From Acinetobacter sp. ASP199 (GTDB lineage Bacteria; Pseudomonadota; Gammaproteobacteria; Pseudomonadales; Moraxellaceae): a stretch of DNA of 64,000 nucleotides. Below, piece after piece: positions 191 through 30,475 of this stretch. The DNA is taken from assembly GCF_022700675.1 (NCBI RefSeq), contig NZ_CP062182.1, positions 558,001 through 622,000 of the forward strand, read 5' to 3'. Position numbers and translations under genes: made by a program. The notes below the pieces were generated by a model, which did not search any database, was not told the DNA's origin, and saw only the letters and a list, made by a program, of their open reading frames with translations. The stretch's first letter is position 1, and the number at the start of each line of letters is the position of its first letter.

Positions 191-1306
191 ATGATTTCAT
201 TTTTAGATTTAAAGCAAATTAATCATCAGTACGCCGAAGAGCTAAAGGCTGCATGTAATCGTGTCATTGATTCTGGATGGTATATTGGTGGTCAAGAATT
301 AGAGAAATTTGAACAGAATTTTGCAGATTATTGTGAGACTAAATTTGCTATTGGTGTTGCCAATGGTTTAGATGCTCTAATTCTTACCTTACGAGCATGG
401 AAAGAGTTGGGCAAACTCAAAGATGGTGATGAAGTCATTGTGCCGGCGAATACCTATATCGCAAGTATTCTCGCAGTTACAGCCAATCATTTAATACCTG
501 TTTTGGTAGAGCCAGATGAAAATAGTTTTAATATTTCGATTGAAGCAATACGAGCAGCAATTACTCCAAAAACAAAAGTGATTTTACCTGTTCATTTATA
601 TGGACAATTAGCAAATATGTCTGCAATTATGCAAATTGCACAACAGCATAATTTGTTAGTATTAGAAGATTCAGCTCAGGCACATGGAGCTGAAGTTGAA
701 GGTAAAAAAGCGGGTAATTGGGGAGATGCAGCAGGTTTCAGTTTTTATCCAGGGAAGAACTTAGGTGCATTAGGTGATGCTGGTGCCATCACTACTAATG
801 ATGCAGAGTTAGCGCAAACTTTAAAAGCTTTGCGTAATTATGGATCCTATGAGAAATATAAAAACTTATTTGTAGGCGTAAATAGTCGTCTTGATGAAAT
901 TCAAGCAGCGATGCTTGACGTAAAATTAAAATATTTAGACGATGAAGTTCGCCGTCGTAGAGCTGTTGCAGCGCAATATATTGAAGGAATCGATAATCCT
1001 TTAATTTCACTACCATTGCAAAATATCAGTGCTGTGGAATATTCACAACATGTATGGCATCTTTTTGTCATTAAAAGTGAGAAAAGAGATCAGCTAAAAG
1101 AATATTTACAACAGGCAGGCATTCAAACACTCATACATTATCCAATTCCTCCGCACAAACAACAGGCATATTCTGGACTTAATTATTTAAGTTTCCCAAT
1201 TACTGAAAAAATTCATGAACAAGTCCTGAGTTTACCTATGGGACCTACTTTACAGGCTGATGAAGTACAGAAAATTATTGCAGTATGCAATACTTTTGAA
1301 GGATGA
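191..1306 (+). CDS. fdtB: DegT/DnrJ/EryC1/StrS-family sugar aminotransferase (FdtB/QdtB type)
   Basis: PLP-dependent aminotransferase of 371 residues, the usual family length. It probably converts a dTDP-3-keto-6-deoxyhexose to the 3-amino sugar (Fuc3N or Qui3N) for surface glycan. The N-terminal [15 protein letters not shown] opening and the [11 protein letters not shown] block are typical of the family. EDSAQAHGA carries the Asp (D160) that contacts the PLP ring nitrogen, and [12 protein letters not shown] carries the Schiff-base lysine K189. The next gene begins 4 bases after its stop. Which of the two epimeric sugars is made cannot be told from this gene alone, so the symbol is tentative. 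Confidence 0.82.
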
Positions 1307-1310
1307 GATA

Positions 1311-2168
1311 ATGAATACATCACTACCATTGGTGACAGTTGTTATTCCAAGTTATAATCATTCTAAATATATTCAACAAAGTATTCAGTCTGTTATTGAT
1401 CAGACTTATGCTCGCATTGAATTAATAGTCATTGATGATGGTTCGCAGGATGATTCTGTTGCGCGTATTGAGGTAATGCGACAGTTATGTGAGAAACGCT
1501 TTGAGCGATTTCTATTTATCACTCGTGAGAATAGAGGGCTGAGCAAAACTCTCAATCAAGGTATTGCTTTAGCTAATGGAGAATTTTTTAGTACAGTTGC
1601 TTCTGACGATATTATGCTGCCAGAAAAAACTACTATCCAAATTGAAGCAATTACTAAAAATACAAATATTGCTGCAATTTTTGGAGCGCATCAGCTTATC
1701 AATGATGATGGGGATGTTGTAAAAGTAAAAGAGAATGCGCGTTACCGTGAGTTCACATTTCAAGAAATCTTCTTTCATCAACATGATATTCCAGCTTCGT
1801 CCCAGCTCATTGACTTAAAGCTTCTAAAAGAAATAGGAGGTTATAATGAAAATACTAAAGTTGAAGATTGGGATTTATGGCTCAGACTCACTGAGCATGA
1901 TGCTAAATTAATTTATCTCCCTGAAATAATCGTTGGTTATCGAATGCATGAGACGAATCTTAGTAGAGATAAATCACTCATGTTTGAGGAAGTATTTAAA
2001 ATTTTGCAACAATATAAGGATAAGAAAGGATATCCTTATGCAGAATATAAAGTGTATAAATTTTATAAAATACGGCCTGCCAAGGAGAAGAGTTATATAA
2101 ACTATCTTCTGTTAAGAATTAAATACTCTATAAGTTATTTAATTAAATCTATTTGCGAAAAAAAATAA
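1311..2168 (+). CDS. Glycosyltransferase family 2
   Basis: A GT-A fold transferase of 285 residues. It opens with PLVTVVIPSYNHSKYI, followed by VIDDGSQDDS (nucleotide-sugar binding), VASDDIMLPEKT (metal-binding acidic pair) and EDWDLWLRL near residue 200, the ED motif of inverting GT2 enzymes. I chose ATG 1311 rather than an in-frame start at 1260: 1260 lies inside the aminotransferase gene, while GGATGA stands just upstream of 1311. No membrane segment is obvious, so it should act at the cytoplasmic face on an oligosaccharide acceptor. Donor and linkage cannot be predicted. Confidence 0.85.
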   Translation: MNTSLPLVTVVIPSYNHSKYIQQSIQSVIDQTYARIELIVIDDGSQDDSVARIEVMRQLCEKRFERFLFITRENRGLSKTLNQGIALANGEFFSTVASDDIMLPEKTTIQIEAITKNTNIAAIFGAHQLINDDGDVVKVKENARYREFTFQEIFFHQHDIPASSQLIDLKLLKEIGGYNENTKVEDWDLWLRLTEHDAKLIYLPEIIVGYRMHETNLSRDKSLMFEEVFKILQQYKDKKGYPYAEYKVYKFYKIRPAKEKSYINYLLLRIKYSISYLIKSICEKK

Positions 2169-2184
2169 GTCGGATCAATTTCTC

Positions 2185-3402
2185 ATGATTAGACAAATTT
2201 TATTGAATTATGCAGCATCGAAAGATTTTAACTTATCAGGCTTTTTTGTAACTTTACTCAAGTTGAAAAAAATTTATATTAAAAAAATTGTTTGGTTAGA
2301 TCAATTGCCCAACGATAACCTACAGATGCTAGCAGGCGATGAGAGGTGTGTGAGTTATTCTCCTCAATTGCCTGAACAGCAAGAGTTATTTAAATTTACT
2401 GAAAAATCGATACAATTATATAAATTTGATCATGTTTTAATTAATATTACTTCATCTTGTATATTATTACGAGCCAACAACAAGATGATTGTCGAGCGAG
2501 TAGAAGAAGCACCTATAGAATACTCAGATTATTCTGCAGGTTTTGTTAAAAAGCATAATTCTGATACAGCCTTGGTAAGGTTAAATCAAAAAAGAATTAA
2601 AATGAATAACGTTCTTTACCTAGGGGGAAACGGTTGTTTTAACTATTATCATTGGCTTATTGAGATTATCCCTAAACTTTTATATCTCAACAATGATATT
2701 CTTGCTGAGTATCAAATAGACAGTATTCTATGTGATATATCTGCTCAAAGAATAGAATCTTTTGGAAAGATATTAAATATAATTTTGACAGAGAAAGGTA
2801 TTGATCTTCCAATCAAATATGTAAATAGAAAAAATGATATTGAATTACAACGTATACTTTATGTTAATAATTTTAATAACCTAGTTTTTAATAGTAAGAT
2901 TCGTTTATCTGGTGTCGAATACTCTCATTTTTATATTAATAGTTTAAAAAAACTTAGAAAAATTCTTATTAATGCAGTGAATAAAAAAGACTTGGGTTAT
3001 AAAAAAATATTTTTGGCTCGAAAAGAGAGTCAAGTACGTTTTTATAATCAAGCTGAGGTGCTAAGTTATTTTATCTCTCAGGGATTTAAACCTGTTTATC
3101 TAGAAGAATATTCATTTGAGGAACAAATTTCATTATTTACGCATGCTGACTTTATCGTAGGACCGAGTGGTGCTGCATGGTCAAATATCATTTTCTGCAA
3201 AGAAGGGTGTCAAGGAATGAGTTGGTTACCTGAGCGCTTATCAGAGTTTTCAGCTTTTTCTTCACTGGCAAAAATTTTTGGCTGTGATTTAAAATTTATT
3301 TTGACTGATCAATCTGAGAACAAACAAGATATTCATTCGAATTATGTGATTAATATAAATAAACTTATTGAGCTCTATACACAGATGACAACTGTAAATT
3401 GA
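2185..3402 (+). CDS. Glycosyltransferase family 61 (DUF563) protein
   Basis: A protein of 405 residues. The family signatures visible are NYYHWLIE (153-160), KIFLARKES in the second half and GPSGAAWSN (326-334), as in GT61/DUF563 enzymes that act on LPS or capsule sugars. It follows the GT2 gene by 16 bases and is the last gene of the left-hand cluster. The coding is strongly AT-rich, more so than the housekeeping genes to its right, as is common in exchangeable glycan loci. The sugar transferred is unknown. Confidence 0.78.
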   Translation: MIRQILLNYAASKDFNLSGFFVTLLKLKKIYIKKIVWLDQLPNDNLQMLAGDERCVSYSPQLPEQQELFKFTEKSIQLYKFDHVLINITSSCILLRANNKMIVERVEEAPIEYSDYSAGFVKKHNSDTALVRLNQKRIKMNNVLYLGGNGCFNYYHWLIEIIPKLLYLNNDILAEYQIDSILCDISAQRIESFGKILNIILTEKGIDLPIKYVNRKNDIELQRILYVNNFNNLVFNSKIRLSGVEYSHFYINSLKKLRKILINAVNKKDLGYKKIFLARKESQVRFYNQAEVLSYFISQGFKPVYLEEYSFEEQISLFTHADFIVGPSGAAWSNIIFCKEGCQGMSWLPERLSEFSAFSSLAKIFGCDLKFILTDQSENKQDIHSNYVININKLIELYTQMTTVN

Positions 3403-22084: not shown

Positions 22085-22825
22085 TTATTTACATTCATTC
22101 AGTTTAAACTGAATTTCATCCTTAAAGCTGGATGGTTTATACAACCATAGGGTACTTGCGCGGCGTTTGGTACTGATCTGTGTACCTTTTAATGCACTCG
22201 CGATTTGCTGATCTAATTGATAAATGCCTGAGCCTTTTCTGATATTGACCTTTTTAATTTCACCTTTACGATTGGCTTTAATCTGGAATGCCACTTTACG
22301 GTCATGTTCATTCAGTAAATCTGTATCAACGTTTAGTTCAGGCTGATTCAGATACTGAAATTTAGTCTTTTGATGCTGCTGTTGCGCTTGCCAGTTTTTG
22401 GAATTAAAGCTGTATTCACAAAATTCCTGATCTTGCTCAGTTAGTTTCAGATTAAACACCTGATAGCCAATGATCGGTAGTGCTGTTTTATTTTCAATAT
22501 GCGGTTTAACTTTCGCAGATTTCACGGCATTAAGTAGTAGCTGATCCAATTGCTGATAACCGGTACTGTCCTGAATGGCAGCCTGTTTGACTTGTCCCTG
22601 CTCGTTGGCATAGATGCGTACCACCGCAGAACGGTTCTGACCTTTTAAATCTGCATTGCTGTATTTCGGTTTGGGAAACTTGGTCCACTCAATGCGTGTA
22701 GTTAAATGCATCGGCTGTACATCAATGGTCTGTGTAGGTAATTGCGGGGCTTTTTTTGTGGATGCGCTATAGCTTGCTGCAAAAGGGAAGCCCATCAATA
22801 GGGTCATGCACAGAATACGTTTCAT
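22085..22825 (-). CDS. Periplasmic protein with two TonB C-terminal-like domains
   Basis: A protein of 246 residues with a cleavable signal peptide (MKRILCMTLLMGFPFAASYSA). Two similar modules follow, each with the TonB_C pattern: about 55-110 (AVVRIYANEQGQVKQAAIQDSTGYQQLDQLLLNAV) and about 170-230 (VAFQIKANRKGEIKKVNIRKGSGIYQLDQQIASAL). Real TonB has an uncleaved N-terminal anchor that meets ExbB and a Pro-rich linker; neither is seen here. It is therefore probably a soluble periplasmic relative, not a working energy transducer. Confidence 0.65.
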   Translation of the reverse strand: MKRILCMTLLMGFPFAASYSASTKKAPQLPTQTIDVQPMHLTTRIEWTKFPKPKYSNADLKGQNRSAVVRIYANEQGQVKQAAIQDSTGYQQLDQLLLNAVKSAKVKPHIENKTALPIIGYQVFNLKLTEQDQEFCEYSFNSKNWQAQQQHQKTKFQYLNQPELNVDTDLLNEHDRKVAFQIKANRKGEIKKVNIRKGSGIYQLDQQIASALKGTQISTKRRASTLWLYKPSSFKDEIQFKLNECK

Positions 22826-23206
22826 AAGTTTCGGTCTTGAATCAAGCAGAGAGGGTGGTCAATCTTGAAGCGCAGTATTTCCTGAATTGGTAGTGCTGGC
22901 AAGTATCTCATTCAAAATATTTTATTTTTCTGTCTCATAATTACGTAAGGCTGCAAATGCATCATGGCAGGAGTCGGGAGCTTTTTATAGAAAGATGCAC
23001 AGATTATAAAAAAGCTTGGATTGGGATGCTTGGTATTTCATCACATAATGCTTATGGAAAGTCGGACTAAACGTCAGTCATCTATCTTTTACTTTTAATA
23101 CTGCTTTTGTTTTAAACAAAGATGCATTAGAATATCGGCTCCCTTACCTGCAGGGCGTCTTTGCAATGGTGCAGACGTGCCGAACAGGTGTTCAAAAGAG
23201 GTTGTT
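22826..23206. other. 381-bp divergent region and rpmI leader
   Basis: Spacer between the TonB-like gene and rpmI. Because infC has its own terminator, rpmI-rplT must start here. A possible promoter is TTTTGT (23105-23110) with TAGAAT (23128-23133), 17 bases apart, next to the palindrome TTTGTTTTAAACAAA. A leader hairpin is listed separately. Confidence 0.4.
23156..23177 (+). promoter_or_regulatory. Leader hairpin upstream of rpmI (possible L20 autoregulation)
   Basis: CGTC/GACG outer stem, TT bulge, TGCA/TGCA inner stem, loop ATGG, 29 bases before the rpmI ATG. L20 represses the rpmI-rplT unit through leader structures in E. coli and Bacillus; that this hairpin is the L20 site is inference. 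Confidence 0.35.
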
Positions 23207-23401
23207 ATGCCTAAGATGAAAACTCGCCGTGGTGCAGCTAAACGCTTCAAAGCGACTGCTAACGGTTTTAAGCGTAAACAAGCGTTCAAACGCCACATTT
23301 TGACCAAAAAATCTGCTAAGCGTATTCGTCAATTGCGCGGCTGTGTAATGGTTCACGTAAGTGACGTTGCTTCAGTTCGTCGTATGTGCCCGTACATCTA
23401 A
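23207..23401 (+). CDS. rpmI: 50S ribosomal protein L35
   Basis: A highly basic protein of 64 residues, [20 protein letters not shown] and onward, the standard L35 length and sequence. An in-frame start at 23177 would add ten non-conserved residues; ATG 23207 has AGAGG upstream and gives the canonical N-terminus. rplT follows 11 bases later. Confidence 0.97.
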
Positions 23402-23412
23402 GGAGATTATAA

Positions 23413-23772
23413 ATGGCTCGTGTAAAACGTGGTGTACAGGCTCATCGCCGTCACAAAAAAATTCTTGCTCGCGCTAAAGGTTACTATGGTGCTCGTTCAC
23501 GCGTTTACCGCGTAGCGTTCCAGGCGGTAATCAAAGCTGGTCAATATGCTTACCGTGACCGTCGTCAGAAGAAACGTCAATTCCGTGCTCTATGGATTGC
23601 GCGTATCAACGCTGGTGCTCGTCAAAATGGTTTGTCGTACAGCCGTATGATCGCTGGCTTGAAAAAAGCTCAAGTGATTATCGACCGTCGCGTACTTGCT
23701 GACATCGCTATGCATGACGCAGTTGCGTTTGCAGCTCTAGCTTCTAAAGCTAAAGATGCATTGGCTGCATAA
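23413..23772 (+). CDS. rplT: 50S ribosomal protein L20
   Basis: A protein of 119 residues. [26 protein letters not shown] is the long basic N-terminal helix that threads 23S rRNA, and [28 protein letters not shown] is the globular domain. It is needed for early 50S assembly and, in other bacteria, represses its own operon. Ends in a strong terminator, which breaks the usual path to pheST. Confidence 0.98.
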
Positions 23773-23787
23773 GTCTTTATGACTTAG

Positions 23788-23817
23788 AAAAAAGACCGCT
23801 TTAGCGGTCTTTTTTTT
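23788..23817. terminator. Intrinsic terminator after rplT
   Basis: Stem AAAAAAGACCGCT / AGCGGTCTTTTTT with a two-base loop and a seven-T tail. The tail overlaps the stop codon of the convergent Xre-ImmA gene (23816-23818), so the hairpin may end both transcripts. Confidence 0.9.
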
Positions 23818-24907
23818 AGATAATTCTAAGTTTCTTTTCTGGAGTAAAAAATTTCATATTAGTGAGCTTTTCAAGTATAGAGATTGAAATATTCAACTCA
23901 TTAGAAATTTGTTCAGCAGAAATACCATCACTGAGTATGATATTTATGGCATCTTGAAGTAACGAGGGTGTTTCAATAGGCATCCTGATATCCTCAGATT
24001 CTTGTCTTGCCTCACCATTAACTCTTAAATGAATAGCGCCAGTTTTATATTGATTATCATCAATCAGATTGAGCTGCTTGGCTCTATATAAGATAGCTGC
24101 TTTGCTAATCCCCCAAATTTGCTTAAACTCACTCATTTTATTCCAATCAAATCTTCCGCCTTTAAATAAAATGGGAAAATTTGTTCTTAACATGGCTTGT
24201 GGTAATAGTAAGGCACTGGAAAATCTATGTGCTTGAGATTCAGTTAATGTATCCCCCGTAGTGACTCCATTATGGAGTACCATGTGACCAATCTCATGAG
24301 CAATATCAAATCTTTGTCGACATGCACTATTTTTACTTGTGTTGCGAACGATAATAGGTCTTTGGCAAATTAGTGATAAAGCATCGACTTCACTTGAGAT
24401 TGAGTTAAAATCAGTTATAACAACCCCAATATCTTCACAGAACTCAGTTAAATTGCTAATAGGGGCTAAATCTAAATCAAATTCTTTTCTAAAGTCTTCA
24501 GCAATTTTTTCAATTTGGTCGCCTGTCAATTGAGTATGATCAACCTCAATAGAATTAATTAGGTATTGAGGTAAATCAACATGTTCTTCAATAAATCGAA
24601 TTAATCGATTTAACTGTTCAGCCCTTGAGATAACAACTTGTTTAGCAAACTGCCTAGAAGTTTTGAGACTCCGGAAATGAATTTGATCTTCTTGAAGCGG
24701 GGAATGAACTTGATAAAAAAAATCCTTTTTCACGTCAAAAAAATTGCATAACTCCACTAAAAGGTCATCGGTTGGATAGCTAAGACCTGTTTCTAGCTTA
24801 TGTATATATTGTTTTGACTTACCAACTTTAACTGCTACGTCTTCAAGGGATAACTCATTGAATAATCTAAGCAGTTTGAGTTCGAGTCCATTGAAAGAAT
24901 TAAACAT
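23816..24907 (-). CDS. Xre-family HTH regulator fused to an ImmA/IrrE metallopeptidase
   Basis: A protein of 363 residues with two modules. Residues about 9-64 form an Xre helix-turn-helix (LELKLLRLFNELSLEDVAVKVGKSKQYIHKLETG). Residues about 175-240 form a COG2856 peptidase: H204-E205-x-x-H208 (AHEIGHMVLHNG), with E223 in TESQAHRFSSALLLP as probable third zinc ligand. A C-terminal region of about 110 residues has a second helix-turn-helix-like stretch (SAEQISNELNISISILEKL). Relatives cleave repressors (ImmA of ICEBs1, IrrE of Deinococcus) or pair with toxins. It follows the 201-residue gene by 20 bases, as second gene of a two-gene unit. The coding is AT-rich compared with the ribosomal genes beside it. 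Confidence 0.85.
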   Translation of the reverse strand: MFNSFNGLELKLLRLFNELSLEDVAVKVGKSKQYIHKLETGLSYPTDDLLVELCNFFDVKKDFFYQVHSPLQEDQIHFRSLKTSRQFAKQVVISRAEQLNRLIRFIEEHVDLPQYLINSIEVDHTQLTGDQIEKIAEDFRKEFDLDLAPISNLTEFCEDIGVVITDFNSISSEVDALSLICQRPIIVRNTSKNSACRQRFDIAHEIGHMVLHNGVTTGDTLTESQAHRFSSALLLPQAMLRTNFPILFKGGRFDWNKMSEFKQIWGISKAAILYRAKQLNLIDDNQYKTGAIHLRVNGEARQESEDIRMPIETPSLLQDAINIILSDGISAEQISNELNISISILEKLTNMKFFTPEKKLRII

Positions 24908-24927
24908 TATAAAACCTAGTAATTAAT

Positions 24928-25533
24928 TCAATTCTCATCAGATCTGTCAGCTTTGTTTCGCTTGCTTGATAGGTTTCGAGTGCGTTTCGGCTTACGATTA
25001 TCAGGGGTATACAGATCATCTGAAGGGATTGATGGGGATGAGCTGGAAGAATTATATTCCCAGAAAGAAACTATATTCTCGTTAACATCATAACTAACAA
25101 AACGTACAGTTGCTAATGGAAGTCCATCTTCATCTAATGAATACATAAGATAGAAGTTAGAATAACAGGGCAAGCCAATATCACTAAATAAGCTTAGCTG
25201 TTCATTTAGAACAAATGCGCCTTTTTTCGTTGGATTATAGTAGTCTTTTTCTTCAAAAAAACGACAAGGAGTTTGCCCAATTTGAAAAATAAATTTATTA
25301 GTTCGATCTAAAATTTGAATGTTATAAGGACATGTATTGCTTTCAAATTCTTTCTTTAAACGATTATGAGTACGTTTAAAGAATACTGTTCCAAATGTAT
25401 AGTTATCATCATCAGGATCTCGTGTATCCCTAAAACTTTTATCAAATGATGAAAGCATTAATTTTGATACATATATTAATTTTTCATCAGTAAGTTCTTT
25501 GTCAAATGTACAAGGATGGGGGTAATTTCCCAT
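24928..25533 (-). CDS. Unidentified partner of the Xre-ImmA/IrrE protein
   Basis: A protein of 201 residues that I do not recognise. Residues 1-150 look folded, with mixed helix (KLIYVSKLMLSSF, THNRLKKEFE) and strand (YNIQILDRTNKFIFQIGQ, YSNFYLMYSLDEDGLPLATVRFVSYD). The last 45 are Ser-rich, then Arg/Lys-rich and probably disordered (SSSSSPSIPSDD, RKPKRTRNLSSKRNK). There is no signal peptide or membrane segment. A strong AAGGAG precedes the ATG. It is the first gene of the pair, driven by a promoter with an inverted-repeat operator. The arrangement suggests a sensor, toxin or peptidase target; function is not known. Confidence 0.75.
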   Translation of the reverse strand: MGNYPHPCTFDKELTDEKLIYVSKLMLSSFDKSFRDTRDPDDDNYTFGTVFFKRTHNRLKKEFESNTCPYNIQILDRTNKFIFQIGQTPCRFFEEKDYYNPTKKGAFVLNEQLSLFSDIGLPCYSNFYLMYSLDEDGLPLATVRFVSYDVNENIVSFWEYNSSSSSPSIPSDDLYTPDNRKPKRTRNLSSKRNKADRSDEN

Positions 25534-25579
25534 ATAACGGCTCCTTTTTCTAATTTTTACCTAAGGTTAGCGAACTTAC

Positions 25580-25608
25580 AAGTTATTTCAAAAGTTTAAA
25601 AACGTCAA
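25580..25608 (-). promoter_or_regulatory. Promoter of the Xre-ImmA cassette
   Basis: On the minus strand TTGACG (25603-25608) and TAACTT (25580-25585) are 17 bases apart, close to consensus. It lies about 50 bases before the first gene of the pair. Confidence 0.65.
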
Positions 25609-25644
25609 CTAAATATTTCAAATATTTAATTTTGTCACCTAAAT
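25604..25644. promoter_or_regulatory. Candidate operator: inverted and direct repeats at the cassette promoter
   Basis: TAAATATTT-C-AAATATTTA (25610-25628) is a perfect 9-1-9 inverted repeat immediately upstream of the -35. GTCAACTAAAT (25604-25614) and GTCACCTAAAT (25634-25644) repeat at a 30-base interval, about three helical turns. The Xre domain encoded by the cassette is the obvious candidate to bind here. Confidence 0.5.
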
Positions 25645-25737
25645 TTGATGGCTAATTAATCTTATTCTATGATGTAAACTTATTTACTCAATTTGAAAAG
25701 AGAAGTGAAACCCAGATATTCACTTATGGGATTTAAA

Positions 25738-25772
25738 AATAGCTCCTAAATTTTTTAAATTTAGGAGCTATT
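25738..25772 (-). terminator. Intrinsic terminator of the tail-anchored protein gene
   Basis: A 16-bp perfect stem AATAGCTCCTAAATTT with its complement (25738-25753, 25757-25772) and loop TTT. The T-run is on the minus strand, downstream of the 25799-26821 gene. Confidence 0.8.
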
Positions 25773-25798
25773 CTTACGTATTAAACTATAAGGAAAGT

Positions 25799-26821
25799 CT
25801 ATAAACCAAAATAATACCCAATCAAACAGATGATCACCGTAATAATAATCAGGGTAATGACATTGCCTGAATTGGATTTGGCTGTATCGTGAGGCTTGTG
25901 TGATTTAGATAGTTTGGTCACATGTTCTTCGGTATTCATCCCGGCAAATGGATCGGCACTGATTTTTGGACTCAGTTTAGCGGTCTTGTAATGATTCGCG
26001 ATTTTGACAATAAACTTCGCTTTCAGATCATCCAGCTTTTGCGCAAAATGACGTAGATCAAGCTGTTGATCGGGTGTCAGTACTTCACCATTTTCATGAT
26101 AAGGATGCTGGATTTTGGCTTCGATCAGTTGTTCCAACGCATCCAGGCGGTATAGCATGTCATGGGCAAAGTCAGCCGCATAATCGGTTGGCAGTAACGC
26201 AAGTTTACTACCGATGCCTGTATCCGTAGTAGAAGAAACCCCATAATAAGGCTGTCCAAGTTGAGCGGGTTGAACAAAACCTTGCGCAAATCTGGTATCA
26301 AATAATTCATGATCCATAAAGACCTGAATATCATCCCAGTTTGGTTGTTCCAGATCTGCAAGTACACGTCTGGCCAGTTTGCTGTTGAGTTCATATTGCC
26401 AGAAGGTTTCATGACGTAGAGAGGATCGCTGCGTAGCAGGCGCTTCATAGTCATTGTCTGCCGTATACCATTCTGGTAGTTCCTTACCAATAATCCAGGC
26501 ATTTTTTTTCTGGGCTTCATGGCTCACAATGAAATATTCAAATGGCAGCAGCTCTACATTTGCATTGGGATTCTGTTCATCTTCAAGCAGGGTAGAGCGG
26601 TGCAAACTTAGACGCTGTACGCCCTGTTTTTTCAAACCTTCCAGCCAAACCTGGAAATGCTGTGCTAAAAGATGCTGTGAAATCAGATCACGAAAGGCAA
26701 ATTGATGTTGATTAAAGATGGAATGCTGAAGCCAGCGATTGAAACTTAAATCCTGAGACAGGTACTCATTTCCATAAGTCACTAAAGTAAGTTGCTGTTT
26801 CCAAATTTGATCGATTGCCAT
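25799..26821 (-). CDS. Tail-anchored protein of unknown function
   Basis: A protein of 340 residues. About 290 soluble residues are rich in Gln, Leu and aromatic residues. A low-complexity polar linker (THKLSKSHKPHD-like, near 300-317) leads to a single C-terminal membrane helix, VITLIIITVIICLIGYYFGL, ending the chain. This topology suggests a cytoplasmic domain tethered to the inner membrane. I see no known catalytic motif. It is divergent from pheS. Base composition resembles the core genes rather than the Xre-ImmA cassette. Confidence 0.65.
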   Translation of the reverse strand: MAIDQIWKQQLTLVTYGNEYLSQDLSFNRWLQHSIFNQHQFAFRDLISQHLLAQHFQVWLEGLKKQGVQRLSLHRSTLLEDEQNPNANVELLPFEYFIVSHEAQKKNAWIIGKELPEWYTADNDYEAPATQRSSLRHETFWQYELNSKLARRVLADLEQPNWDDIQVFMDHELFDTRFAQGFVQPAQLGQPYYGVSSTTDTGIGSKLALLPTDYAADFAHDMLYRLDALEQLIEAKIQHPYHENGEVLTPDQQLDLRHFAQKLDDLKAKFIVKIANHYKTAKLSPKISADPFAGMNTEEHVTKLSKSHKPHDTAKSNSGNVITLIIITVIICLIGYYFGL

Positions 26822-26960
26822 AGTGATTTGATCTAATTGATATCATGTTTATTTTATACTTTTTATTTTTGCATCTGCCAATCTAATTTTCATTGTATGC
26901 CATCTTCATCAATGTGCCTAAAAACTGTTAGAATATGGGGTTTTTAAAATAATTTTTTAA

Positions 26961-27962
<1,002 letters not shown>

Positions 27963-27973
27963 AACAAATTTAT

Positions 27974-28060
27974 ACCTCTCCCTGACCTCTCCTAAAAGGA
28001 GAGGGGTTGTACAACTATGACACAGGGTTCTCCGCCTTTGATACAGGGGAGTTAGAGGGG
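27974..28060. repeat. CCTCTCC fold-back intergenic repeat, copy 1
   Basis: CCTCTCCT-AAA-AGGAGAGG (27986-28004) forms a hairpin, flanked by CCTCTCCC to the left and ACAGGGG...AGAGGGG to the right. Related sequence occurs at 38922-39051 and 44687-44850. This copy sits inside the pheS-pheT operon. Confidence 0.65.
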
Positions 28061-28093
28061 ATTCTAAAGATTTGAATTACAGGTTTTATATCA

Positions 28094-30475
28094 ATGAAAA
28101 TTAGCGAAAATTGGCTACGCACATGGGTTAACCCAGCCATCGATAGCGACACATTATCCGATCAACTGACCATGTTGGGTCTGGAAGTTGACGACTTATC
28201 TCCTGCAGCGAAACCATTTACTGGTGTGGTTGTTGGTGAAGTTCTGACTGTTGAACAGCACCCGGATGCAGACCGTTTACGTGTAACTACCGTGAATATC
28301 GGTTCAGGTGAACCACTCCAAATCGTGTGTGGTGCACCAAACGTACGTGCAGGTATGAAAGCGCCTGTTGCAACAATTGGTGCAGTACTCCCGGGCGATT
28401 TCAAAATCAAAAAAGGTAAACTTCGTGGTATTGAATCACAAGGGATGCTGTGCGGTGCGTCAGAAATTGATCTTGAAGACAAAATTGATGGTCTATTAGA
28501 GCTTCCTGATGATGCGCCTGTTGGTGTCAACATCCGTGAATATCTAGACTTAGATGACAATGTGATTGATATCAGCATCACACCAAACCGCGGTGACTGT
28601 TTCAGCATTCGTGGTATTGCACGTGAAATTGGTGTGATTAACCAACTTCCTGTGACTGCGCCAGAAATTCAAGAAGTGGCTGCAACCATTGCTGATGAAA
28701 AGAAAGTGGTGGTGTCGACTGAAGGTTGTCCACGTTACCTAGGTCGTGTGATCAAGAACGTTAATACCAAAGCACCAACACCTGAATGGATGGAGCGTGC
28801 ATTGGCACGTTCAGGTATTCGTCAACACAGCATTTTGGTCGATATTACCAACTATGTATTGATCGAGCTGGGTCAACCGTTACACGCATTTGATGGTGGC
28901 AAGGTTCAAGGTGCAGTTCACGTTCGTCAAGCAACAGCCGGTGAAAAGCTGGTGCTGTTAAATGAACAGGAAGTTGAACTGCATGAAAAAGTGATGGTGA
29001 TTGCAGATGATGAAAAAGCATTGGCAATTGCAGGTATCATGGGTGGCTTGTCTTCATCTGTAACCGATGAAACCACTGAAATCTTCTTGGAATCAGCATT
29101 CTTCGCACCATTACACATTGCAGGTCGTGCGCGTAGCTTTGGTTTACATACCGATGCATCGCAGCGTTATGAGCGTGGTGTGGACTTTGAATTGCCAATG
29201 ATCGCAATGCATCGTGCATCTCAACTGATTAGCGAGCTTGCAGGCGGTGAATTTGGTCCAATTACCATTGCTGAAAATGCAGCAGTATTGCCAACACGTG
29301 AAGCGATTGAGCTTGAACAAGCGCAAGTGGATCAACTTCTGGGTTATAAAGTTGAATCAGACTTCATTACTGACGCGCTGACACGCTTAGGTTGTGAAGT
29401 GACTGTGAAAGCACAAGGTCAATGGTCTGTGGTACCACCGTCGCACCGTTATGACATGGCGATCTACCAAGACTTGATCGAAGAAGTTGCACGTATTCAC
29501 GGTTATGACAACATTCAAATCAGCTTGCCTGTGATTGATGTCAAACTTGCTAAATACCAAGACCAATTTGAAGTGGCTCAGCTTCGTCAAACTGCGGTGA
29601 CTTTGGGTTATCAAGAAGCGATTAGCTTTAGCTTTGCTGACCTGAAACTTGAAAAACAATTGAATCCAAGTGTAAATCCATTGGCATTGGCAAACCCGAT
29701 TTCAAGTGATTTGGCCGTGATGCGTTCAACACTGTTATCCAGCTTGATTCCATGTGTACAGTACAACGTCAACCGTCAGCAAAACCGTGTACGCTTCTTT
29801 GAGCTGGGTCTGCGTTTTGATTATCAGGATGCTGCATCGATTCATGACCTCAAGCAAATTCCAACTTTCGCTTTGATTGCGACTGGTTCACGTACCAATG
29901 AATCATGGCATGGTAAAGCACAGCCAATGGACTTCTTTGACTTTAAAGGTGATGTTGAGGAAATTCTGGCAGCAGCTCGTCTGAATGTTGAATATGTACG
30001 TTCTGAGCGTGAATGGCTACATCCGGGTCAATCTGCTGAAATCATGGTTGATGGTCAGTCGATTGGTTATTTGGGTCGTTTACATCCATCGCTTGAAGAT
30101 GAGCTGGATTTGGCAACCACTTGGGTCGCTGAACTCGATCAAAAAGCCGTTTTGCAAACTTATGTATCTAATTTTACAGAATTATCACGTTTTCCATCGG
30201 TTCGACGTGATATTGCGCTTTTAATTAGTGATAAGATTAATGTTAGCGAAATTCAGAGACTTATCGAAAAGACTGGTGGTGAGCTCCTAGAGTCAACCTG
30301 GTTGTTCGATGTGTACACTGGACAAGGGGTAGAAGAAGGCAAGCGTTCTCTAGCATTTGCTCTTCTCTGGCAGCATCCAACCCGTACCCTGGAAGATGCT
30401 GAAATTAAATCAGGCATGGATAATATCCTGCAAGTGTTAGAAAACACTTATCATGCGACATTGAGGGCTTCATGA
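28094..30475 (+). CDS. pheT: Phenylalanine--tRNA ligase beta subunit
   Basis: A protein of 793 residues, the full bacterial PheT length. Domains in order: EMAP/tRNA-binding OB fold (about 40-150, [26 protein letters not shown]), B3/B4 editing domain for Tyr-tRNA-Phe, the pseudo-catalytic core, and a C-terminal ferredoxin-like anticodon-binding domain ([18 protein letters not shown] to the end). It overlaps ihfA by 4 bases (ATGA), implying translational coupling. Confidence 0.98.

Follow-up and report, generated by a model that had tools for sequence, protein, structure and literature searches.

The two genes beside rplT in the window (the whole 64,000-nt stretch of Acinetobacter sp. ASP199 DNA that was analysed) very likely form a RosmerTA system, a type II-like toxin–antitoxin pair used in phage defence; we put the probability of this reading at about 0.85. 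PADLOC RosmerTA profiles cover both proteins over almost their whole length, and the pair matches PHROG families 2439 and 5786. The first gene, rmrT (24928–25533, minus strand), encodes a putative toxin of 201 aa that matches RmrT alone in PADLOC (PDLC03929, E 2.7e–38) and phrog_5786 at E 4.4e–27. The second, rmrA (23816–24907), lies 20 nt 3′ of rmrT on the same strand in the ORF list and encodes a putative antitoxin/repressor of 363 aa, a fusion of an Xre HTH domain with an M78 (ImmA/IrrE) zinc peptidase (Pfam HTH_3, E 2.2e–12, and Peptidase_M78, E 9.2e–14). Its best PADLOC match is the RmrA profile PDLC03943 (E 2.7e–140), and 14 RmrA profiles match in all; capP (E 6.7e–16), capH (E 2.6e–5), HTH_VI and peptidase_U41 match more weakly. 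Given the RmrT and RmrA profile matches, we assign the locus to RosmerTA.

Both ORFs exist as given in the preliminary description of this DNA, which had also proposed a toxin–antitoxin or defence type of pair, in line with the profile matches of both proteins. The HEIGH motif that it called intact stands at the HExxH position of RmrA, and HExxH is kept in all 18 aligned RmrA loci. The 201-aa partner had been thought unidentified, because it has no Pfam match (E up to 1) and no NCBIfam family; neither collection places it in a housekeeping family. The RmrT match supplies its identity and, with the RmrA profiles and the account of RosmerTA in PMC10440598, the claim of an undescribed system falls: what Pfam and NCBIfam would leave as an undescribed pair is part of a known defence family. 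Each of the 50 RmrT family members scanned, ours among them, hits this same PADLOC profile and no other at E 0.001, and with 2.7e–38 versus 4.8e–90 for the best of the 50 our copy is not among the closest to the profile. As expected of RosmerTA, the locus has an RmrA with Xre HTH and M78 domains, an adjacent RmrT match, an intact HExxH and patchy, paired conservation. As a family the pair is ordinary; by its sequence it appears to be a real, acquired-looking and intact-looking RosmerTA pair.

RosmerTA systems join diverse toxins (RmrT) to an ImmA-protease antitoxin (RmrA), and other members act in phage defence, as described in PMC10440598, where Millman et al. 2022 is the reference for the system. 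Both the antitoxin and toxin roles and the anti-phage activity are published (PMC10440598; PMC12322248), RosmerTA is reported from A. baumannii genomes and several prophages (PMC12421847), and Xre–COG2856 pairs were predicted as toxin–antitoxin modules in 2009 (PMC2701414). The roles could be reversed, with the Xre-peptidase as a toxic protease that the 201-aa protein restrains. We consider this quite unlikely: in PMC10440598 the antitoxin role goes to the ImmA protein and the toxin role to its diverse partners, and the Xre domain of RmrA together with the conserved promoter repeat described below is expected of an autoregulating antitoxin, although the Xre-peptidase of PD-lambda-2 alone is toxic on overexpression and rescued by its upstream gene (PMC9519451) and COG2856 peptidases appear in the 2009 survey as predicted toxins, frequently joined to an antitoxin domain, or in three-component systems (PMC2701414).

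Very improbable is a regulatory switch like ImmR–ImmA or CapH–CapP, the idea of the preliminary description, in which the peptidase would cut a different repressor, with the 201-aa protein as an accessory. The M78 domain is the same, and the capP and capH matches given above point this way, but the scores of the RmrA profiles are much better, inspection of the neighbouring ORFs by eye shows no separate gene for an Xre repressor, and 15 of 15 genomes have the 201-aa partner (see below). The partner had also been suggested as the cleavage substrate; by the family roles of RosmerTA it is instead expected to be the toxin.

The cassette at the rplT terminator

The cassette common to three carriers spans 23817–25639 (~1.82 kb, from blastn blocks) and is absent from the close relatives compared. 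In blastn of the window against three non-carriers, homology ends at 23816–23817 and resumes at 25796–25806; against the two other carriers it runs from rplT to 25639–25640 and then stops. The 3′ boundary common to the cassettes is the rplT terminator, a hairpin and T run (23789–23817) with perfect 9-bp arms at 23792. The rmrA stop codon (23818–23816) overlaps the T run, and rmrA does end inside the terminator, as had been stated. A terminator scan of 23700–26000 listed none; the scanner asks for a loop of at least 3, and that of the rplT hairpin is ~2. Rfam gave 0 matches over 22500–28500.

Among the matches listed, rplT and pheS had 150 each, with 135 genomes in both and 130 carrying the two on one contig and strand. 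The interval between them (23773–26984 in the window) is highly variable across the genus, measuring 0.2–11.4 kb in 120 of the 130 (own included) and 53–83 kb in 9; the gene order differs in one (G024), and for these 10 long or reordered genomes stretches of 10–20 kb beside rplT were read. The usual occupant is a 340-aa gene of no known family (25799–26821, minus strand), which is present in 119 of the 120 short intervals and lies outside the system. The placing of the pair between rplT and pheS needs refinement, since the 340-aa gene also lies there; as this gene separates rplT from pheS in nearly all short intervals anyway, their adjacency in E. coli does not on its own count as evidence. 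rmrTA occupies this site in only three of the 120 intervals, in the window, in A. silvestris and in a Candidatus A. avistercoris MAG. Judged by the 340-aa protein, the nearest relatives have a different gene there (G084, 94%) or only 86 bp (G118, 93%), and the search for empty sites across rplT–pheS junctions, proposed earlier, thereby found one in G118.

The 340-aa gene is positionally conserved and fast evolving (46.9–94.1% identity to the window copy); its protein has no Pfam match above cut-off, no NCBIfam match and, by eye, a hydrophobic segment at the end. Between this gene and the cassette lies a 35-bp near-perfect inverted repeat (25738–25772), probably the terminator of the 340-aa gene; it occurs at a single place in the genome and is absent from the 86-bp gap of G118. 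Two genomes have at the same site (L169, 486–6139, and L170, 517–7803) a gene for a protein of 1253 or 1845 aa that begins like a haemagglutinin, and one for a 563–569-aa partner; by eye this has the look of two-partner secretion.

GC content of the cassette is 32.9% versus 42.9% for the window, and GC3 of its two genes is 21.4% and 25.6%, where the 37 window ORFs have a median of 40.2%; in base composition the two genes are unlike most of their neighbours. These compositions (GC 32.9%, GC3 21–26%) favour a foreign origin. Three glycan genes at 191–3402 are as low in GC3 (21–26%) as the cassette genes; this block, with a DegT-type aminotransferase and GT2 and GT61 glycosyltransferases, is probably a surface-glycan locus. 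The earlier impression of acquired-looking DNA at the rplT terminator holds, and the cassette is now documented at this place alongside the vacant site of the near relative G118.

In a tree built quickly from 119 rows of the 340-aa protein, rmrTA presence needs three changes, with 40 of the 115 inner branches open and some long branches; the window groups with its two nearest non-carriers, G084 and G118, at a starred branch. Identity at fourfold-degenerate sites among the carriers is 36–47% for rmrA/rmrT, 48–61% for pheS and 27–35% for the 340-aa gene, and reaches 77–81% for rplT and 91–92% for rpmI, as expected of ribosomal genes. Recent exchange of the cassette among the three carriers is rejected, because at 36–47% the synonymous sites of rmrA and rmrT are near saturation. 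Window rplT DNA is 99.7% identical to that of non-carrier G084 and 89–90% to that of the carriers, which indicates that no donor rplT came with the cassette. The cassette thus behaves like a single unit that was either acquired at this one spot or lost from it several times; it may have entered independently at a favoured position, or it may be an old common inheritance that many lineages have lost.

The rplT–pheS interval as a defence hotspot was not supported: six cargo proteins have no PADLOC match and one of the six has a Pfam match (DUF1398). These six represent rarer clusters, the four commonest (61, 43, 30 and 26 ORFs) lay outside the scan, and a hotspot may exist. A literature search on rplT–pheS as an integration site found no paper on the subject by title.

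Distribution of the pair

In the genomes examined, RmrT and RmrA are constantly paired and patchily distributed. A search of 175 genus genomes (own included) gave 19 RmrT matches, 3 close (at least 76%), 12 distant (30–36%) and 4 weak; with close copies in 3 of 175 genomes, the pair is far from being present at this place throughout Acinetobacter. The four weak matches (L016–L019, one per genome) have five in-frame stops each over the same query range and look like one decayed rmrT copy. RmrA (at least 49% identity) adjoins RmrT on the same strand in all 15 genus genomes with RmrT at E < 1e–9, and the spacing of the two genes is –4 to +36 nt in every one of the 18 loci read. In one genome, G113, a fragment of RmrA (49%, residues 182–362) occurs with no RmrT match. 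All three close copies stand at the rplT site and 11 of the 12 distant pairs elsewhere; for the twelfth (G078) the rplT row was not among the matches listed.

Four of 293 genomes sampled from the order match RmrT (own included), versus 0 of 14 control genomes. A protein search started from the single sequence returned 22 relatives and one started from an alignment 71, our own copy counted each time; they include Pantoea and Rhodocyclales sequences. Viral contigs hold 36 RmrT-relative loci by the wider alignment and none by the close one; in genome contigs the single RmrT protein found no relative and the alignment 2 loci, and tblastn of RmrT at 1e–5 had no match in the phages collection. Ten plasmid records carry RmrT relatives, all below 60% identity. 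On an A. baumannii plasmid the relative is Tn7-like cargo and neighbours TnsD/TnsE-type genes as well as three genes with an anti-phage-associated annotation, and on a Klebsiella plasmid it lies beside phage-like replication genes. The co-occurrence survey called for earlier thus yields adjacency in 15 of 15 and a single case beside anti-phage genes.

An isolated two-gene cassette, patchy and low in GC, could also be a plain addiction module that maintains itself or its carrier and gives no useful defence against the phages of its host, and the narrow protection in published tests (PMC10440598; PMC12322248) is consistent with this. The relative beside anti-phage genes, the others in viral contigs and the published protection by RosmerTA (PMC10440598) argue for defence instead, and we regard a plain addiction module as rather unlikely.

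Promoter and tandem repeat

Upstream of rmrT we found a tandem direct repeat of period 30. The first copy (GGTGACAAAATTAAATATTTGAAATATTTA; 25610–25639, minus strand) forms the outer edge of the shared cassette, where homology with the two other carriers ends. The second (25580–25609, minus strand) contains the promoter: it begins GTTGAC, with –35 TTGACG at 25608–25603, a 17-bp spacer and –10 TAACTT at 25585–25580. This promoter (25608–25580) had been called strong; it is present and its position is conserved in relatives, but at 8 of 12 consensus positions it is not strong by consensus, and a promoter scanner that needs 9 of 12 did not list it. The perfect 9-1-9 inverted repeat noted beside it (TAAATATTTCAAATATTTA, 25610–25628) is real, lies within the first copy and is one of four such in the 64-kb window. 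As an operator it is rejected: its arms reach at best 4–6 of 9 matches in the 16 other upstream sequences with the repeat pair and are not conserved.

The conserved element consists of two head-to-tail copies that begin GKTGAC and end, by eye, near GCAATAAA, GTCCTAAA or TGAAATAA. The 52 loci, some of them shared between searches, give 18 different upstream sequences, and the box pair at 30–33 bp spacing occurs in 17 of the 18 versus 0 of 5400 shuffles; in the one without it (L009), the region had been taken from a start codon placed too far 5′. Repeat scores of single sequences are weaker than the box pair: the 19 of 26 matches in the window are reached by 1 of 100 shuffles and, L009 excepted, scores elsewhere by 0–5 of 100. 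One half-site varies, by eye largely in step in both copies (exceptions include L003 and L005), and the recognition-helix region of RmrA differs between the same groups (GKSK, GKSR, DYTR, ECTR). This covariation is suggestive of a repressor and its operator, with the reservation that the groups follow descent.

The Xre part of RmrA is likely a repressor of its own promoter, as proposed in the preliminary description, but the conserved element is the tandem direct repeat and not the inverted repeat. In the genome, the element core occurs without mismatch only at the rmrT promoter and at one further place with one mismatch, and a reversed control has 5 matches; a wider regulon is therefore not indicated by these counts. 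Among the papers listed by a literature search on a RosmerTA operator, none contained the word RosmerTA, which does not imply that no description exists.

Predicted structure and possible activity of RmrT

The AlphaFold2 model of RmrT (mean pLDDT 81) has an alpha/beta domain over residues 1–163. The disordered basic tail reported earlier is borne out by pLDDT < 50 at 164–188 and 190–201; in seven distant relatives aligned, the tail is acidic, not basic. With this alpha/beta model and no membrane segment visible by eye, the target is probably intracellular rather than the membrane. A PDB sequence search with the RmrT profile gave 0 matches at E 1, and Foldseek of the first RmrT model returned no hit with E of 0.001 or below from the PDB or from viral models. 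No clear structural match emerged; resemblance to restriction nucleases is weak and below the noise guide. Residues D42, Y45 and R54 are invariant, and R91 and K103 near-invariant.

A nuclease-like activity is our leading guess. It is conceivable, if doubtful, that this RmrT class is a diverged nuclease, PD-(D/E)XK or EcoRV-like, whose active site is non-canonical (D42/Y45/R54/R91/K103) and which is held by RmrA and released when the protease of RmrA is triggered, and that the tandem direct repeat serves as an operator with two sites, reading the level of free RmrA. The toxin class gains conserved residues, a confident folded-domain model and a conserved promoter element.

Proposed mechanism

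By analogy with the family, RmrT would be the toxin, RmrA the antitoxin and autorepressor, and a phage the trigger. Autorepression is expected, because RmrA has an Xre domain and a conserved repeat stands at the promoter. The Xre domain would bind the two repeats and repress rmrT–rmrA, and RmrA would hold RmrT inactive in a protein complex. Phage infection or another insult would disable RmrA: plausibly, the M78 peptidase is switched on and cuts an Xre domain, either in the same RmrA molecule or in a partner subunit, which is a guess, and HTH cleavage has been suggested for Rosmer-like pairs in PMC10440598. Free RmrT might then arrest the cell, perhaps by attacking nucleic acid. Toxicity, the repressor footprint and the phage trigger are now simple to test directly.

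Comparison with known systems

With the RosmerTA profiles PDLC03929 and PDLC03943 the pair shares the near-full-length match and the order of toxin gene first and Xre–M78 antitoxin second. The RosmerTA of Gordonia phage Kita (RmrT-D5) likewise joins an ImmA-type antitoxin to a toxin of no known family and is anti-phage; its RmrT is predicted at the membrane and depolarises membranes, whereas the RmrT described here is modelled as an alpha/beta domain. According to PMC10440598, the Kita toxin depolarises membranes and is not fully neutralised by its RmrA, the Kita pair protects narrowly against phages, and the prediction of the toxin–antitoxin complex was not reliable. In section 11 of that paper, text and figure legend disagree on which of Bas54, Bas55, Bas59 and Bas60 Kita RosmerTA stops. 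Of two RosmerTA homologues tried in S. thermophilus, neither worked efficiently against most phages (PMC12322248).

PD-lambda-2 of E. coli shares an Xre-peptidase fusion downstream of a small partner gene (PMC9519451). It has three components, with a HigB-like first one and a toxic Xre-peptidase, whereas the present locus has two genes: the 201-aa protein is without a Pfam match, and the cassette holds neither a HigB-like first component nor a third operon gene. The spr1629 family repressor/antitoxin NF052239 is alignable over RmrA residues 5–352 (E 5.5e–49); membership in that family was rejected at 167.2 bits versus a cut-off of 335. ImmR/ImmA of ICEBs1, IrrE and CapH/CapP share the M78/COG2856 peptidase with HExxH. 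ImmA and ImmR are separate proteins (PMC2701414) and CapH and CapP separate profiles, whereas RmrA fuses the HTH domain to the peptidase and is paired with a toxin-like gene.
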